The notes below the pieces were generated by a model that saw only the letters and a program-made list of their open reading frames with translations, was not told where the DNA came from and ran no database searches. Shown here piece by piece: positions 51,752-58,981 of a DNA stretch of 64,000 bases (position 1 is the first letter of the stretch; each line of letters opens with the position of its first letter). The stretch is from positions 1-64,000 of the forward strand of contig DASUWA010000005.1 in assembly GCA_036378675.1 (NCBI GenBank), given 5' to 3'. Position numbers and translations under genes: made by a program. The DNA is from Acidimicrobiales bacterium. GTDB lineage: Bacteria > Actinomycetota > Acidimicrobiia > Acidimicrobiales > Palsa-688.

Positions 51752-53887
51752 TCACGAAGCGATTCGGCTCGTGTAGCCGTTCTTTGCTTCGCCGCCGTCC
51801 CAGCGCAGCGCAAGATCCAGCCGTAGCTCGCCATTGGGCGCCTCGGGGGGGATTGATGCAGCGATCGCTCCGATGCGAACGCACGAGTCCGGCGGGACAT
51901 CGCCGGCGAAACGCCACGATCGCTGGCCGCCCGGCCAGCTCAAAACGACCTTCGCAACCACATCTGTCAGCGGGTTCCGCAGGTCGCTGACCGCGTGGAT
52001 GTCAAGGGCGATATGGCTTCCGGGCCGATAGGACGCATCGGGACGATCGGCGGCGACGATGACAGGAGCGCACGCCGCCGCAAGCGCGCGGTAGCCGGCC
52101 TTTGGGATCCGGTCGTGGTCGAGCACCGACCAGCTGACCGACGGCTGCGAATCGCTGAGCATGAACATGCAGAACCCGCCTGTCGGTCGGTACTTCAAGC
52201 GACGCAGCGTTTCGATGTGGTGACGCAGAACGAGTGCCTGGTACTCCTGGGTTGCCCGCTTCCAATCGTCGAATGTCACGTAGTCCGCAGGCGGAACCCT
52301 TCGTTCGAATATCTCGCGCTGAAGGCTGTTGTGCTCCTCGAGACGCGTCCAGTCAAGATCCGGCCACCGCTCGGGTTCCATGAACGACGCCGTTTCAGGC
52401 ACCGCCTGCGCCCCGAACTCACTCACGAATCGAGCGAGCACCGGCAGCCGCGCGAGCGCTCCGGGGAAGTCACGCTCGTGTCCGTGGTACCAGCCGAAAT
52501 AGAAATGGCTGTCCGTTCCCCACGCCGGGTGCGGCAGCACCCCGGAGTGAGCCACCACTTCGCGCGATCCGTCGGACCGCTCCAGCGCCCGCTGGATCGA
52601 ACGGTCCAGGACGGTCTTGTTCCAGCTTGGGAGAGCCTGACCCGCCACCAATCTCGCGACCGTTCTCGGCGCCAGCGCGGTGCCAGGCGTCAGCTCCAAC
52701 GCGAGTGGTTCGTTGTGGGCGCACCACAGTGCGATGGAAGGGTGATGGCCAAGGAAGTTGACCGCCTCGCGCGCCTGGTTTACCGCCTGCCTGCGCACTT
52801 GCCCGTAGCCCCACTGGAGCGGCATGTCCTGCCACAACAAGACGCCTGCGCGGTCGGCGGCCTCGTACAACTCCGCGCGGCTGACATGCGCGTGGACGCG
52901 AAGCAGGTCCAGGCCGGCATCCTTCGCGAGGGAGACGTCCCGAACCAGATCCTCACGGGTAACTTCCGCCAGCGCCCGCGCCGCCGGACCGTAGTTCGCT
53001 CCCTTGAGGAAGACGCGCTCGCCGTTGACCGTCGCCAAGAAGTTACGCACTCTCACCTGACGGAGCCCGGTCAGCAACTTGCGCGAATCGCTGACGTCGT
53101 CGTTGTCCCTGACGCGAACCTCGACGCTCACTTCGTACAGAGGTTGGTCGCCCAGGGCGTGAGGCCACCACAGGTCCGGACGGTCTGCTCCGACCCTCCA
53201 GCGAACGCGGTTGTCACCCGCGGCCAACGAATGAGAATCGACGCGCTGAGCCGCCGGCGACGACGCGCCTTCCCGGCGAAGTTCTGTCGATACGGTCACT
53301 TCGGCCTGGGCGACGGTATCGAGCTCCGCCTCGAACTCCAGGGTCGCGGTCTCGGCGGTGGCGTCGCGGCACAGCACCTTCAGATTGCGAATCCGAACCT
53401 CTCCGGTCTCGAAAAGACGGACTGGGGCCCAGATTCCACCGGGGTTCCAATCCGGATCGATGCAATCCCAGTGCTGAAAGACGCCGGTCAGATTGCGCTT
53501 TGCCCGCAGGTCAGTCTGCCGGCTGCATGCGACCTCCACTGCGAGCAGGTGGTCGCGCTTCGCTGACAGAAGTTCGGTGACCTCGAATGTGTGCGGGAAG
53601 AAATATCCCTCGGTGTCACCGACGTACTCGCCGTCTAGCCAGACGTCCGTTTGGTAAAAGACACCGTCGAAGGTCAGGAAAGCTCGCCTCCCATCCGCCG
53701 GCATCTCAGCTTCGAAACGGTGGCGATACGCGACCGGGCCGTCAGCACCGGAGAAAGCCGGGTGCGATCGCCAGTGCCCAGGAACGGCAAGGCGCTCCCA
53801 GTCAGAGTCGTCCAGGTCTGGGTCGGCGAGTCGCCGGCGCAGCTCGTCGTCCGACGGCGCGACCGACCACATCCCTCCCAGGTCCAT
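51752..53887 (-). CDS. Glycoside hydrolase family 2 protein (beta-mannosidase/beta-galactosidase type)
   Basis: Retaining exo-glycosidase of 711 residues, without a signal peptide and so probably cytoplasmic. The sugar-binding jelly-roll domain starts WSVAPSDDELRRRL and has FDGVFYQTDVWLDGEYVGDTEG near residue 75-95. An immunoglobulin-like sandwich follows. The TIM barrel has FLKGANYGP, LDLLRVHAHVS, the acid/base WCAHNEP (Glu393) and the nucleophile FVSEFGAQA (Glu490). The overall pattern is nearest to beta-mannosidases, but specificity is not certain. TACCCT ends 9-10 bases before ATG 53887, so it may have its own leaderless mRNA besides read-through from the sigma-factor gene 31 bases upstream. 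Confidence 0.88.
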   Translation of the reverse strand: MDLGGMWSVAPSDDELRRRLADPDLDDSDWERLAVPGHWRSHPAFSGADGPVAYRHRFEAEMPADGRRAFLTFDGVFYQTDVWLDGEYVGDTEGYFFPHTFEVTELLSAKRDHLLAVEVACSRQTDLRAKRNLTGVFQHWDCIDPDWNPGGIWAPVRLFETGEVRIRNLKVLCRDATAETATLEFEAELDTVAQAEVTVSTELRREGASSPAAQRVDSHSLAAGDNRVRWRVGADRPDLWWPHALGDQPLYEVSVEVRVRDNDDVSDSRKLLTGLRQVRVRNFLATVNGERVFLKGANYGPAARALAEVTREDLVRDVSLAKDAGLDLLRVHAHVSRAELYEAADRAGVLLWQDMPLQWGYGQVRRQAVNQAREAVNFLGHHPSIALWCAHNEPLALELTPGTALAPRTVARLVAGQALPSWNKTVLDRSIQRALERSDGSREVVAHSGVLPHPAWGTDSHFYFGWYHGHERDFPGALARLPVLARFVSEFGAQAVPETASFMEPERWPDLDWTRLEEHNSLQREIFERRVPPADYVTFDDWKRATQEYQALVLRHHIETLRRLKYRPTGGFCMFMLSDSQPSVSWSVLDHDRIPKAGYRALAAACAPVIVAADRPDASYRPGSHIALDIHAVSDLRNPLTDVVAKVVLSWPGGQRSWRFAGDVPPDSCVRIGAIAASIPPEAPNGELRLDLALRWDGGEAKNGYTSRIAS

Positions 53888-53918: not shown

Positions 53919-55352
53919 TCAGAGGCCGGAGGTGATTCCGGTGACCGTGTTCGTTACCGTCTTGGTGACGTTCGAGACCGGATTGGTGGCGCTGCTTTGG
54001 CCGCCCGACGGAGGACCAGTGACCGTGTTTGCCGGCGGCGGCGGCGGGCCGGCGGGCGCGCAGCCCGCGAGCGTGGTGCCGCCGACCGTGAGGCCGACAC
54101 CGCTGCTGCATCCGACCGTCACCGTGGCGGCGTTGCCGGTGGGGGCGCTATTGACGTTGACGTTGGCGGTGGTGCCGCTGTTAGTCACGCTGGCCACCGG
54201 CGAATTGAGCAGCGTCTGGCCCTGGGTCGGCTTCGGCGTCGTCGGGGTTTGAACCGGAGGCTGAGTGGGGTTGGAACTGTTCGTAGGACTGCTCGGCGTG
54301 TTCCCACCACCGCCGCCAGATCCCCCGCCGCCGGCGACGGAGCCGGTCGGGTTGGTGCCGAGGGTCGTGGCTCCTCCTGAGCCCCCGCTACCGGACGTCC
54401 CCAGCCCGAGCGGGTTGAGGCCGCTGTTCGGTGCGACCGTCCCGACGCCGCCAGCGAGGCCACCGAGGCCGCCCCTATTGGCTAGCGGGTTGAGGCCAGG
54501 CGAGTTGGCGCCGGGGAGGCTGCCGGTGGCGACGCCACCGTTGTTCACGGAGCTGTTCTGCCCGACGATGCCTAGCCCGATGAGGCCGAGACCCATGAGG
54601 GCGCCCACCGAAACCCAGAGTGGGCGAACGGCCCGCTCGTTCATCCAGCCGGTGAGAGGGGCGAAACGGGCGCTGGGGTCGCTGACCAGTGCCTTCCACC
54701 TTGCTGCGGCCTCGTCGGCGAGGTTCGCCGGCACCGCGGCGGCAAGGGGCCGGAGAGCGCTGCCGAGGTGCTCGGGCTCGGGCCGGCGGGCCTGAGCGAA
54801 CCGACCGGCCAAACCCCTGCGCCCACGGGTGAGGAGCTGGCTGGCCACCGCCGAGGACACGCCGAGAACCGCCGCGATCCGTTCCGCCTCCATGGACTCA
54901 ACGTCACCTAGCCACACCGCTGCACGCCAGCGCTCCGGAAGGCTCCGGAAGGCCGCCTCAAGCAGGGCAGCGTTGGCTCCCTTGGAGTGAGCTCCCTTGC
55001 CCTTGGGAACCGAACGGGCGGCGAAAGTGGGGGTCGGGGTCGAGTGGCTGTGCAGGTGGTCGATCGCGGCCTTATAGACAGCCGACAGAAGCAGCGGCCG
55101 GTAGGTCTCGGAGTCGAGCCGGCTCTGGCGCCGAAGGCTGCGAAGCGAACGCCCAAAGCCCTCGGCGACAGCGGCGATCGCGCTGTCACGGTCGACGGCG
55201 ACCGCTTGAGCGACGCGCCATGCGGTCTGGCTGTGGCGCCGGTACAGCTCGCTGAATGATTCCTCGTTGCCCCGGGCCGCCTGACGTATCAGGTCGACCT
55301 CGGCGCCGAGGGCTGGTGCTGTTGCTGAGACTGGAAGAGCGACCGAGTTCAT
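53919..55352 (-). CDS. ECF-type sigma factor fused to a membrane anchor and extracytoplasmic tail
   Basis: Likely membrane-tethered regulator of transcription. Residues ~17-75 look like sigma region 2 (LIRQAARGNEESFSELYRRH and AWRVAQAVAVDRDSAIAAVA). Residues ~135-185 look like region 4 (FRSLPERWRAAVWLGDVESM and AERIAAVLGVSSAVASQLLT). After a helical linker a single membrane segment lies at about 244-265 (PLWVSVGALMGLGLIGLGIV). The remaining ~210 residues are Gly/Ser/Thr/Pro-rich, with two cysteines in VTVGCSSGVGLTVGGTTLAG followed by CAP. Typical ECF factors have ~190 residues and no anchor. An AGGGG Shine-Dalgarno sequence precedes ATG 55352. Divergent from the AAA+/VWA genes. Confidence 0.82.
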   Translation of the reverse strand: MNSVALPVSATAPALGAEVDLIRQAARGNEESFSELYRRHSQTAWRVAQAVAVDRDSAIAAVAEGFGRSLRSLRRQSRLDSETYRPLLLSAVYKAAIDHLHSHSTPTPTFAARSVPKGKGAHSKGANAALLEAAFRSLPERWRAAVWLGDVESMEAERIAAVLGVSSAVASQLLTRGRRGLAGRFAQARRPEPEHLGSALRPLAAAVPANLADEAAARWKALVSDPSARFAPLTGWMNERAVRPLWVSVGALMGLGLIGLGIVGQNSSVNNGGVATGSLPGANSPGLNPLANRGGLGGLAGGVGTVAPNSGLNPLGLGTSGSGGSGGATTLGTNPTGSVAGGGGSGGGGGNTPSSPTNSSNPTQPPVQTPTTPKPTQGQTLLNSPVASVTNSGTTANVNVNSAPTGNAATVTVGCSSGVGLTVGGTTLAGCAPAGPPPPPANTVTGPPSGGQSSATNPVSNVTKTVTNTVTGITSGL

Positions 55353-55415: not shown

Positions 55416-55549
55416 TCGCCCCATGCACAACTTTTACCTAAAACAAGCGATCTCCTTCTACCCCCGACGGGATTTTTTTCAATCACCGAATGCCGCGTAA
55501 TGCGCGAACAGGTATTTACCGGCGGGGACGTAGTGGACGAGAAGGCGGG

Positions 55550-55561: not shown

Positions 55562-56974
55562 ATGAGCTCACGACCTGCGACCCTCGGGCAGCTGCGAGAT
55601 TCGGGCTGGGAGTCGATCCCGGTCAAAGAGGAGGTTCGCCGCAACGCGGCCCGGCGGATCGCCGAGGGCCAGCCCCTGGTCCCGGGCGTGCTCGGTTTCG
55701 AGGAAACGGTGCTGCCACAGCTGGAAAATGCCCTCCTCGCCGGCCACGACATCATCTTCCTCGGGGAGCGGGGGCAGGCGAAGACGCGGATCATTCGCAG
55801 CCTCACCTCACTGCTCGACGAGTGGATTCCGATCGTGGCGGGATCCGAAATTCTCGACGATCCGTACAAACCAGTGTCGCGTTATGCCCATGATCTGATC
55901 GCCGAACGGGGGGAGGACACGCCGATCGAGTGGGTGCACCGCGACAACCGCTTTGGCGAGAAGCTGGCGACACCTGACACGTCCATAGCGGACCTCATCG
56001 GCGAGGTGGACCCGATCAAGGTCGCAGAGGGGCGGTACCTGGCCGACGAGCTGACCCTTCACTATGGGCTGGTGCCGCGCACGAACCGCGGCATTTTCGC
56101 CATCAACGAGTTGCCCGATCTTGCCGAGCGGATCCAGGTCGGCCTGCTGAACGTGCTCGAAGAGCGAGACGTTCAGGTGCGGGGTTACAAGATCCGCCTG
56201 CCGCTCGACGTGATGCTCGTGGCTTCTGCCAACCCGGAGGACTACACCAACCGTGGCCGGATCATCACGCCGCTGAAGGATCGGTTCGGTGCGCAGATCC
56301 GCACCCACTACCCCCTCGACATCGAGACGGAGATATCGGTGGTTCGCCAGGAAGCGCTTCCCATCTCGGTGCCGGGAGTGAGGATCGAAGTTCCGCAGTA
56401 CATGTCGGAGATCGTGGCGACGATCTCGCACCTCGCCCGGCAGAACGCTCATATCAATCAGCGTTCGGGTGTATCGGTCCGCTTGAGTGTGTCGAACTAC
56501 GAGACGCTCGTGGCGAGCTCGGTACGGCGGGCGCTTCGTCTGGGCGAGAGTGAGGCGGTGCCCCGCGTCAGCGACCTGGAGTCGCTGGCTTCGTCGACCG
56601 CCGGGAAGGTGGAGATCGAGACCATCGACGAGGGCCGCGACGCTCATGTAGTCGAGCGAATCGTGCAGCAGGCCGTGCTGACCGTGTTCAAGAGCACCGT
56701 CGGCCAGGACAAGCTGCGTGACGCGGTAGCCGAGTTCGACAGCGGGGTCGTGGTTCACACCGGCGACGACGTTCCCGCGGCGAGCTTCGTCGACTCGCTA
56801 GGTCAGATGCCCTACCTGCGCGACGTGGTCACCCATCTGGGAGGCAAGAGGGGATCCGACGACTCGGCGGCTCAGATCGCCAGCGCGACGGAGTTCGTGT
56901 TGGAAGGCCTTCATCTCGCCAAGAGACTCAACAAGGACGCGGCGGGCGTCCGCGCCACTTACCGGGCCCGTTAG
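55562..56974 (+). CDS. AAA+ ATPase of the magnesium-chelatase/MoxR-like group
   Basis: Probable chaperone-like ATPase that remodels a partner with the help of the VWA protein encoded next. The 470-residue protein has the nucleotide loop IIFLGERGQAKTRIIRSLTS near residue 65 (the usual GXGKT is GQAKT, as in the COG1239-like group), the Walker B/helix-2 insert GIFAINELPDLAERIQVGLL near 175, NVLEERDVQVRGYKIRLPLD, sensor-1 VASANPEDYTNRGRIITPLK and the arginine-bearing DRFGAQIRTHYP. The gene lies three bases before the VWA gene, so they form an operon. It does not look like a chlorophyll-pathway enzyme: no other chelatase genes are present. Confidence 0.88.
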   Translation: MSSRPATLGQLRDSGWESIPVKEEVRRNAARRIAEGQPLVPGVLGFEETVLPQLENALLAGHDIIFLGERGQAKTRIIRSLTSLLDEWIPIVAGSEILDDPYKPVSRYAHDLIAERGEDTPIEWVHRDNRFGEKLATPDTSIADLIGEVDPIKVAEGRYLADELTLHYGLVPRTNRGIFAINELPDLAERIQVGLLNVLEERDVQVRGYKIRLPLDVMLVASANPEDYTNRGRIITPLKDRFGAQIRTHYPLDIETEISVVRQEALPISVPGVRIEVPQYMSEIVATISHLARQNAHINQRSGVSVRLSVSNYETLVASSVRRALRLGESEAVPRVSDLESLASSTAGKVEIETIDEGRDAHVVERIVQQAVLTVFKSTVGQDKLRDAVAEFDSGVVVHTGDDVPAASFVDSLGQMPYLRDVVTHLGGKRGSDDSAAQIASATEFVLEGLHLAKRLNKDAAGVRATYRAR

Positions 56975-56977
56975 GCG

Positions 56978-58981
56978 ATGGCCAAGTTCCGCTACTCGAG
57001 ATGGGATGGGACCCAGACCGGATTCGAGTTCGACGCGGACGATGTTTTCGATGAGCTGACCGACGAGCTCCTTTATCACGGGGATCTCAATCAGGCACTG
57101 CAACGGCTTCTCCAACGCGGGTTCACGGATCGCAACGGGGAACGCCTATCCGGGCTGCGGGACATCCTGGAGCGGTTGCGCCAGCGCCGGCGGGACATGT
57201 TGGAGCGCCATGATCTCGGCGGTCCGTACGAGGATGTGGCCCGTCGCCTTCGTGAGATCGTGGAGCAGGAGAGAGACGGCATCGACAATCTCGTCGCCGA
57301 GGCGAGGGCCTCGGGGGATCAACGGCGCGCCGACATAACCGAAGAGGTTGCGACTGAGCGGCGTATGGCGCTTGATCTTCTCCCACCGGATCTCGCCGGG
57401 CAGGTGGAGTCGCTGCAGGAGTACGACTGGACCAGCAACGCGGCGCGCCAAGCGTTCGAGGAGCTGATGGACGAGCTGCGCTCGCAGCTGATGCAGAGCT
57501 ATTTCAACCAGATGTCGTCGGCGATGTCCGACATGTCGGCCGAATCGGTTCAGCGAATGAAGGACATGTTCAACGAGCTGAACCGGATGCTCGAGGCCCG
57601 GGCCGCCGGTGAGGACACGGACAGGATGTTCGCCGACTTCATGGAGCGATTCGGCGACATGTTCCCCGGCAATCCGCAGACCCTCGACGAGCTGCTCGAG
57701 CAGATGGCCCGGCAGATGGCGGCCATGCAGCAGCTGCTCAACTCGATGAGCCCCGAGCAGCGCGCGCAGCTTCAGCAGCTCGCCGATTCGCTGCTCGAGG
57801 ACATGGACCTTCGCTGGCAGGTCGAGCGTCTTGGCGGAAACCTCCGCCAGGCATTCCCCAGCATCGGCTGGGAGCGCCAGTTCGACTTTTCGGGGCAGGA
57901 TCCGCTCGGGTTCGCCGAGGCGGCCGCAGTCATGAATCAGCTCGGCGACATGGACCAGCTCGAGCAGATGCTGACCACGGCGTCGAACCCGGGAGCGCTG
58001 GCGGAGGTTGACATCGAAAGAGCCGAACAGCTTCTCGGGCAGGACGCAGCGAAGTCGTTGGAGCAGCTTTCGAAGCTCGCCCGCCAGCTCGCCGATGCTG
58101 GTCTTGTTGACCAAAGGGAGGGACGCCTGGAGCTCACCCCGCGAGGGTTGAGGAGGATCGGGCAGAACGCCCTCTCGGACCTTTTTTCCAGGTTGATAAA
58201 GGACCGGATGGGTCGCCACGTCGTCGAGCGCATCGGGGTGGGCCACGAGCGGGCCTACGAGACCAAGGCCTACGAGTGGGGCGATCCGTTCAACCTGTCG
58301 ATCGAGCGGACGGTCCGCAACGCTTTGGCGCGAACAGGGTCGGGAACTCCGGTGCGTCTTTCGCCGGACGATTTCGAGGTGGAGCGCACCGAGAGCCTTA
58401 CGTCGACGTCGACGGTGCTCGCGCTGGACCTTTCGTTGTCGATGCCGATGCGGGACAACTTCCTCGCCGCCAAGAAGGTCGCGATGGCGCTGCACGCGCT
58501 GATCACCTCGCAGTTCCCCCGTGACTACCTCGGTCTGGTCGGCTTCGGCGAGATCGCTCGGGAGTTGCGGGCGGCGCAGCTGCCCGAGGTTTCCTGGGAC
58601 TACACATATGGGACGAACATGCAGCACGCTCTGGTCCTTGCGCGGAGGATGCTTGCGCGACAGCAGGGAACCAAGCAGGTGATCATGATCACCGACGGCG
58701 AACCGACTGCCCACATTCTGCCGGGCGGCGACCCCTTCTTCAGCTACCCGCCCGCACCGGAGACGATCAGGGCGACGCTGTCCGAGGTTGTCCGGGCGAC
58801 CCGCGAGGGGATCACCATCAACACGTTCATGCTCGATGCCACCGGTTACCTTCGCAACTTCGTGGAGAAGATGACGCAGCTGAACCGGGGGCGCGCGTTC
58901 TTCACCACTCCGGAGACACTTGGCGACTACGTCCTGGTGGATTTTCTGGATCAGAAGCGCGCGAGGCGGCGTCCCGCCTAG
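56978..58981 (+). CDS. VWA-domain protein, partner of the AAA+ ATPase
   Basis: Cytoplasmic 667-residue protein. Residues ~1-440 are charged and mostly helical, with Met/Gln-rich stretches (LLEQMARQMAAMQQLLNSMS) that may form coiled coils. The C-terminal VWA domain carries the metal-ion site DLSLSM (Asp484), the threonine region GTNMQHALVLARRM and MITDGEPTAH. This ATPase-plus-VWA layout recalls MoxR/VWA, RavA/ViaA and ChlI/ChlD pairs, in which the VWA protein is the adaptor for the ATPase. The target is unknown. The trkA gene begins 10 bases after its stop. Confidence 0.88.
   Translation: MAKFRYSRWDGTQTGFEFDADDVFDELTDELLYHGDLNQALQRLLQRGFTDRNGERLSGLRDILERLRQRRRDMLERHDLGGPYEDVARRLREIVEQERDGIDNLVAEARASGDQRRADITEEVATERRMALDLLPPDLAGQVESLQEYDWTSNAARQAFEELMDELRSQLMQSYFNQMSSAMSDMSAESVQRMKDMFNELNRMLEARAAGEDTDRMFADFMERFGDMFPGNPQTLDELLEQMARQMAAMQQLLNSMSPEQRAQLQQLADSLLEDMDLRWQVERLGGNLRQAFPSIGWERQFDFSGQDPLGFAEAAAVMNQLGDMDQLEQMLTTASNPGALAEVDIERAEQLLGQDAAKSLEQLSKLARQLADAGLVDQREGRLELTPRGLRRIGQNALSDLFSRLIKDRMGRHVVERIGVGHERAYETKAYEWGDPFNLSIERTVRNALARTGSGTPVRLSPDDFEVERTESLTSTSTVLALDLSLSMPMRDNFLAAKKVAMALHALITSQFPRDYLGLVGFGEIARELRAAQLPEVSWDYTYGTNMQHALVLARRMLARQQGTKQVIMITDGEPTAHILPGGDPFFSYPPAPETIRATLSEVVRATREGITINTFMLDATGYLRNFVEKMTQLNRGRAFFTTPETLGDYVLVDFLDQKRARRRPA

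Follow-up and report, generated by a model that had tools for sequence, protein, structure and literature searches.

A membrane-tethered sigma-like protein without a zinc-finger anti-sigma domain in a family of uncultured soil actinobacteria

Proteins that combine a sigma factor, a zinc-finger anti-sigma domain (ZAS), a membrane helix and a long outside tail have been described in Actinobacteria as groups ECF52, ECF53 and ECF48 (PMC8999054, section 3.5; PMC5826349). One-piece sigma–anti-sigma membrane proteins are thus known, and they have barely been tested. The protein analysed here is encoded in a 64,000-nucleotide stretch of an Acidimicrobiales genome (the whole stretch is called the window below), and like ECF52 (SCO4117 of Streptomyces coelicolor), ECF53 and ECF48 it carries a sigma domain, a helix and a low-complexity outside tail in one chain. 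Unlike them, it has no zinc-finger anti-sigma domain, nor the carbohydrate-binding module that SCO4117 has in addition, and its sigma2.2 region is without the acidic pair. The sequence-only reading with which this analysis began had taken the fusion to be unusual in kind, which it is not, as the three groups already follow the same plan and the closest relatives outside the family do likewise. The order of parts is already known; a version without ZAS and without the docking residues would be new, and our search of the open-licence literature found neither such a version nor a membrane-anchored or degenerate sigma of this type.

In IutY (ECF243) of Pseudomonas putida, the anti-sigma is fused to the sigma factor and proteolysis by Prc/RseP frees the sigma (PMC8999054). 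The window protein resembles IutY in having a sigma-type part and a membrane part in one chain, but shows no anti-sigma part. The alphaproteobacterial PhyR contains an ECF-like sigma2-sigma4 domain that is not a sigma factor and captures the anti-sigma NepR (PMC4598750). Its likeness to the window protein extends to the working model only, i.e., a non-sigma, sigma-like domain that would capture an anti-sigma. PhyR has a receiver domain and no described membrane anchor, whereas the window protein is anchored, gave no Pfam match to a receiver domain and was not linked to a partner. ECF43 factors lack the DAED motif and are activated by threonine phosphorylation, according to the relevant sections of PMC8999054 and PMC13147305. 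ECF43 (EcfP, EcfK) therefore shares with the window protein a sigma2.2 without DAED, but it adjoins a Ser/Thr kinase gene and has a conserved Thr, neither of which was seen for the window protein.

The gene and its surroundings comprise the following features, given in window positions.

53919..55352, minus strand: whole gene with sigma-like domains, membrane helix and outside tail (open reading frame; 12 orthologues)
55038..55301, minus strand: sigma2-like domain, residues 18-105 (NCBIfam ECF models, AlphaFold2 and Foldseek; without a Pfam Sigma70_r2 match)
55173..55184, minus strand: tetrad of sigma2.2 at residues 57-60, SAIA in place of the DxxD of sigma factors (residue audit)
54783..54965, minus strand: sigma4-like domain, residues 130-190 (PF08281; Foldseek)
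54624..54782, minus strand: juxtamembrane segment, residues 191-243, the place of the ZAS (HxxxCxxC) in relatives, the motif being absent here
54558..54623, minus strand: single membrane helix at residues 244-265, with many small residues in a GxxxG-like pattern (hydropathy)
53922..54557, minus strand: low-complexity tail, residues 266-477, predicted to lie outside
54060..54110, minus strand: Cys-pair mini-module, residues 415-431 (CSSGVGLTVGGTTLAGC)
55432..55456, minus strand: bipartite element resembling a promoter, AGGA-N10-TTTAGGTAAAA, conserved upstream of the sigma-like gene
51752..53887, minus strand: GH2-type glycoside hydrolase gene, 31 bp downstream of the sigma-like gene on the same strand
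55562..58981, plus strand: conserved neighbouring genes in divergent orientation, AAA (Mg-chelatase-like) and VWA

The reading frame is present as proposed: it runs from 55352 to 53919 on the minus strand, starts with ATG and encodes 477 aa. Of the two ECF regions assigned to it from sequence, region 4 was found by Pfam (PF08281, residues 130-179, 27.2 bits against a cut-off of 25.7), and region 2 gave no Pfam match to Sigma70_r2 at E<=0.1. The evidence for region 2 comes from elsewhere. Whole-ECF NCBIfam models align to the protein over residues 18-192, all below their curated cut-offs; PRK09643 SigM reached 6.8e-12 over these residues, below its cut-off, and TIGR02937 scored 27.8 bits (cut-off 42.9). 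A profile of the window family found ECF sigma chains in the PDB (SigE, 2e-14). Residues 1-290 were modelled with AlphaFold2 from an alignment (A2) of 36 rows, namely the window, its relatives L051-L053 and 32 rows drawn from the 77 other loci retained in a scan of named genomes, and the helices of sigma2 and sigma4 were both confident, with residues 21-100 mostly at pLDDT >90. With Foldseek, PDB matches at E<=0.001 numbered 23, almost all of them to ECF sigma factors, and the sigma4-like domain matched 5fgm and 2h27 with TMt of 0.79-0.82.

The single membrane helix predicted near residues 244-265 was borne out by a Kyte-Doolittle peak of 2.14 at residues 245-263; the preceding 25 residues include four K/R, and the following 25 are uncharged. 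Hydropathy placed a helix at the same position in all 12 orthologues, with 2-7 K/R in the 25 residues before and 0-2 after; in the AlphaFold2 model of the window protein the helix is uncertain (pLDDT ~40-50). ECF52/53/48 proteins have one or two such helices and an extended C-terminus; judged on hydropathy only, the window protein agrees with them in both. The long Gly/Ser/Thr/Pro-rich tail was also found as described: from residue 271 onwards, only 3 of 207 residues are charged and 70% are G/S/T/P/A, and no Pfam carbohydrate-binding module matched it at E<=0.1. A Cys pair of the window kind occurs in nine of the 11 orthologues with complete tails and in five of 16 chosen ZAS relatives, some matches being loose and C..C pairs of other spacing or place (L137, L141 and L146) being uncounted. 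The mini-module may be a disulphide-closed sensor hairpin. Modules resembling it recur at the C-terminus of the ZAS-fused ECF tails of L054, L058, L132, L133 and L159.

Full fusions, defined by matches of at least 93 bits spanning the sigma domains and the helix, are present in 12 of the 32 genomes of the window's family, the window included, so an assembly artefact is ruled out. The 12 orthologues read through in a single frame (L018 is cut by the contig end) and are not split by a start codon, which also disposes of a start-codon artefact; sigma-like part, anchor and tail do form one molecule. All remaining matches in the family were weak and fell on ECFs that are either ordinary or fused to a ZAS, as L021 in G031 is. 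A ZAS-type alignment search confirmed that some family genomes also encode ZAS-fused ECFs and pointed to no partner anti-sigma in the family genomes. Nor does an anti-sigma gene lie next to the sigma-like gene, as had been stated: the window neighbours are, by Pfam, GH2, AAA, VWA, two TrkA-N, FTCD_N and WhiB.

Genome G000 (4.1 Mb) contains 54 Sigma70_r4_2 matches, many of them in long open frames, which points to numerous ECF-like proteins, part of them extended.

Outside the family, most of the next-best matches after the window in a class-wide sample of 247 genomes were to long ORFs that contain a zinc finger. A scan of named genomes with the single window protein as query found no relative. 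A later scan, in which 80 of 565 loci were kept, included three family members from Acidimicrobiaceae MAGs, L051 (palsa_693), L052 (palsa_688) and L053 (BP_112). In 76 of the remaining 77 loci the HxxxCxxC motif follows sigma4 in the expected range. The exception, L062, has a ZAS row as its partner in the tree; the motif is absent from the window-family orthologues. The outside relatives inspected over their full length combine a sigma factor with a zinc-finger anti-sigma, and most also have a membrane helix and a long tail. Moreover, the membrane and juxtamembrane sequence of some ZAS relatives, e.g., L060, resembles that of the window family.

The phylogenetic tree included 33 of the 90 ZAS rows, together with L062 and with 11 of the 15 further non-ZAS rows. 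A 100/100 branch separated ten canonical ECFs from every other row. The window family as a single clade was not rejected (p-AU 0.525), with L019 and L020 sitting apart; its position relative to the ZAS group received weak tree support, and it was not placed inside that group. The grouping of the window family with the ZAS rows against the canonical-labelled rows as a clade gave p-AU 0.065, and one row labelled canonical, L140, fell inside the ZAS part. Given this topology, the direction of change is drawn from distribution and shared tail features: the wide outside spread of the ZAS form, the similar juxtamembrane and membrane sequence and the shared Cys-pair module suggest that the ZAS was lost here and not gained elsewhere. 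On the best reading, the window lineage shares ancestry with the actinobacterial sigma2-sigma4-ZAS-helix-tail proteins and is now without the ZAS.

Sigma factors contact core RNA polymerase through the DxxDxxQE motif of sigma2.2 (PMC13147305), and section 3.4 of PMC8999054 treats an ECF that lacks DAED as intrinsically inactive. The residue audit covered 21 Acidimicrobiia-type ZAS rows, the first 25 among 69 other ZAS rows and 14 of the 16 non-ZAS rows, with L062 and L140 left out. DxxD was found in none of the 12 orthologues, ten of which have no acidic residue in the tetrad and two of which have one, as against 1-3 in the 21 and 2-3 in the 25 ZAS rows and 1-2 in the 14 canonical ECFs. The last Asp of the tetrad is likewise missing from all 12 orthologues and present in 18/21 Acidimicrobiia-type ZAS, 25/25 other ZAS and 14/14 canonical rows; the alignment anchor is unambiguous (SAIAAVAEGF in the window, DAEDAVAEGF in L134). 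Ser/Thr is not conserved at the tetrad, which reads, for example, AAVQ, GALK, RAVG or AAAK. On the face directed to the -10 element, an aromatic residue (Y/W in 17/21, 25/25 and 14/14 rows) is mostly L, V or H in the 12 orthologues, and the RN pair is replaced by Tyr (12/12) plus R/K/Q. In E. coli sigmaE, W73 and N80 face the -10 element. The Arg of the ZAS rows (21/21 and 23/25) is Tyr in 12/12 orthologues, and the basic run that follows is thinned. The name 'sigma factor' given to the protein from its sequence is doubtful, as the acidic motif and the -10-facing residues are missing in the orthologues. Loss of motif residues is no proof of loss of function, since ECF43, which is without DAED, is a sigma once phosphorylated.

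The window family retains most conserved positions of sigma4; it lacks the basic residues that canonical ECFs carry in the -35 recognition helix, where most ZAS relatives also differ. Among the anti-sigma contact positions given in Table 2 of PMC7406223, R46, F66, F135 and V151 are fixed in 12/12 orthologues, as is E/D at 150, and positions 42, 59, 63 and 149 vary or are lost. These positions overlap with those contacting the beta' clamp and, being partly kept and partly not, favour a sigma mimic weakly. Invariant residues occur in both sigma domains, and new invariants of the window family, such as Y93, indicate repurposing.

Both domains are under purifying selection. The Ka/Ks (NG86) of sigma2 was 0.13 for L019/L020, 0.17 for L012/L015 and 0.16 for L009/L010, the three closer pairs, and 0.35 and 0.43 for two other pairs, distant pairs being near synonymous saturation. 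Values for sigma4 were 0.10-0.23 and those for the tail 0.26-1.05. Mean pairwise identity was 0.59 in sigma4, the most conserved part, and 0.45 in sigma2. The low Ka/Ks values indicate that both sigma domains are maintained and, together with the confident folds, argue for repurposing rather than decay.

The AAA gene was found in 29 of the 32 family genomes and in 69 of the 79 sampled order genomes. In 12 of the 29 family AAA loci the sigma-like gene lies between GH2 and AAA (the GH2 of L018 being beyond the contig end), in 14 GH2 and AAA directly diverge with 58-234 bp between them, and three show neither. The place of the gene is fixed: GH2 is on the same strand downstream of it, with a gap of 31-177 bp, in 11/11 loci where GH2 is visible. 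None of the 29 order loci examined has a sigma-like gene beside AAA; loci came from no more than these 29 order genomes, with a flank of less than 800 bp in 6. The comparison with related genomes that the sequence-only reading had proposed showed the fusion recurring in the family and AAA/VWA widespread without the gene; a functional tie to AAA/VWA is therefore unsupported. Across family loci, AAA is 77-87% and VWA 68-91% identical (VWA where most of the gene is in view).

Presence of the gene needs seven changes on the AAA tree, for which 10 of the 29 order loci were used; this number makes a gain followed by several losses, or else transfer, likely. G025 (L173) and its sister genome G026 (L046) have near-identical loci, with AAA nearly identical, and G025 is without the sigma-like gene. 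The deletion is clean and spans ~1.6 kb: it begins within the promoter-like element, stops ~80 bp before GH2 and takes away nothing but the sigma-like gene and a portion of the element. The gene is dispensable in some lineages. The element, AGGA-N10-TTYNGGTAAAA, keeps its spacing in about 7 of the 12 upstream regions by eye, and a template search found it in 6 of the 11 other upstream regions, compared with a maximum of 4 in 20 shuffled sets. At <=1 mismatch it occurs in the genome at its own site only, so that no regulon is visible.

We consider the best reading of the protein to be a membrane-tethered, sigma-like regulator without ZAS, for which a sigma mimic or a sigma4-based regulator is likelier than a releasable sigma factor. 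The core of this reading, to which we give a probability of roughly 0.55, is that the protein would not be a conventional promoter-recognising sigma subunit and that its sigma fold would act as a binding surface held at the membrane; this covers the mimic and the sigma4 forms. With the residues that grip RNA polymerase lost, it may be a membrane-bound signalling decoy or regulator. The ancestor would have been a sigma2-sigma4-ZAS-helix-tail protein whose cis anti-sigma, the ZAS, was then lost. The residues that dock sigma2 on the RNA polymerase clamp and face the -10 DNA would have gone too, with both folds kept, leaving a protein without a conventional promoter-recognising role whose retained fold would be a surface fixed at the membrane. 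The sigma2/sigma4 groove, uncovered by a cis ZAS, would capture a trans-acting anti-sigma domain, on the pattern of PhyR with NepR, and the outside tail and the Cys pair would set when or where this capture happens. Such mimicry, proposed by analogy, is the likeliest single mechanism and is itself tentative. Its more specific form, a transmembrane one-component anti-anti-sigma that descends from a sigma/anti-sigma fusion and titrates anti-sigma factors upon envelope cues, PhyR-like but without phosphorylation, is by the same analogy conceivable rather than probable.

Two other readings are nearly as likely as the mimic. The sequence-only reading, whose observation was confirmed and whose interpretation is partly supported, saw a working ECF sigma of the ECF52/53 kind, held at the membrane and released by proteolysis or active while tethered. 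The order of parts is that of ECF52/53/48, for which proteolytic release is proposed, both sigma folds are retained under purifying selection, and the conserved upstream element could be autoregulatory; however, the DxxD is missing in 12/12 orthologues, the -10-face residues are changed, and the uniqueness of the element leaves such a sigma without a visible regulon. As the protein has neither a ZAS nor another inhibitory domain, only the tether could keep the sigma inactive. We regard an unusual sigma freed by proteolysis as possible and rather improbable. ToxR and CadC are tethered regulators, and a DNA-binding regulator of their kind, using sigma4 only, could act on two divergent promoters, that of its own operon and that of AAA. 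This would agree with sigma4 as the most conserved part (0.59 vs 0.45), with the bipartite element in the gene's own promoter region, partly gone where the gene is deleted, and with the small-residue patterns of the helix, which suit dimerisation. Yet sigma2, which a sigma4-only function does not need, is constrained too, genomes that lack the gene still have AAA and GH2, and the canonical basic residues of the -35 helix are absent, though also in most ZAS relatives. The sigma4-only regulator is the next most likely form of the core claim, and on its own a doubtful one.

Two further explanations carry very little weight. A kinase might restore the missing negative charge of sigma2.2, as the threonine phosphorylation of the DAED-less ECF43 factors would suggest, and the window tetrad does contain S57; but Ser/Thr is unconserved there and Pfam found no kinase among the eight window genes scanned, so phosphorylation of the ECF43 type was rejected as highly improbable. 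The gene might also be a decaying sigma gene, or encode a surface protein with a relic sigma part, given its patchy presence (12/29 family AAA loci), its deletion in G025 and a region 2 below Pfam detection. Against this stand the invariant residues in both domains and Ka/Ks of 0.10-0.23 in sigma4 and 0.13-0.43 in sigma2, values that make decay very unlikely.

The window family, carried by a family of uncultured soil actinobacteria, looks like a one-piece sigma–anti-sigma protein stripped of its inhibitor and of its RNA polymerase-docking residues and still under selection. If the sigma mimic holds true, it would mark a route from a sigma factor to a membrane-bound anti-anti-sigma, in which sister genomes with and without the gene can be compared.

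In four order genomes (L220-L223), GH2 lies 874-1323 bp from AAA, which leaves room for another gene, and in L222 an ORF with a membrane helix near its start lies between AAA and GH2. The AAA-GH2 interval may be an insertion hot spot.
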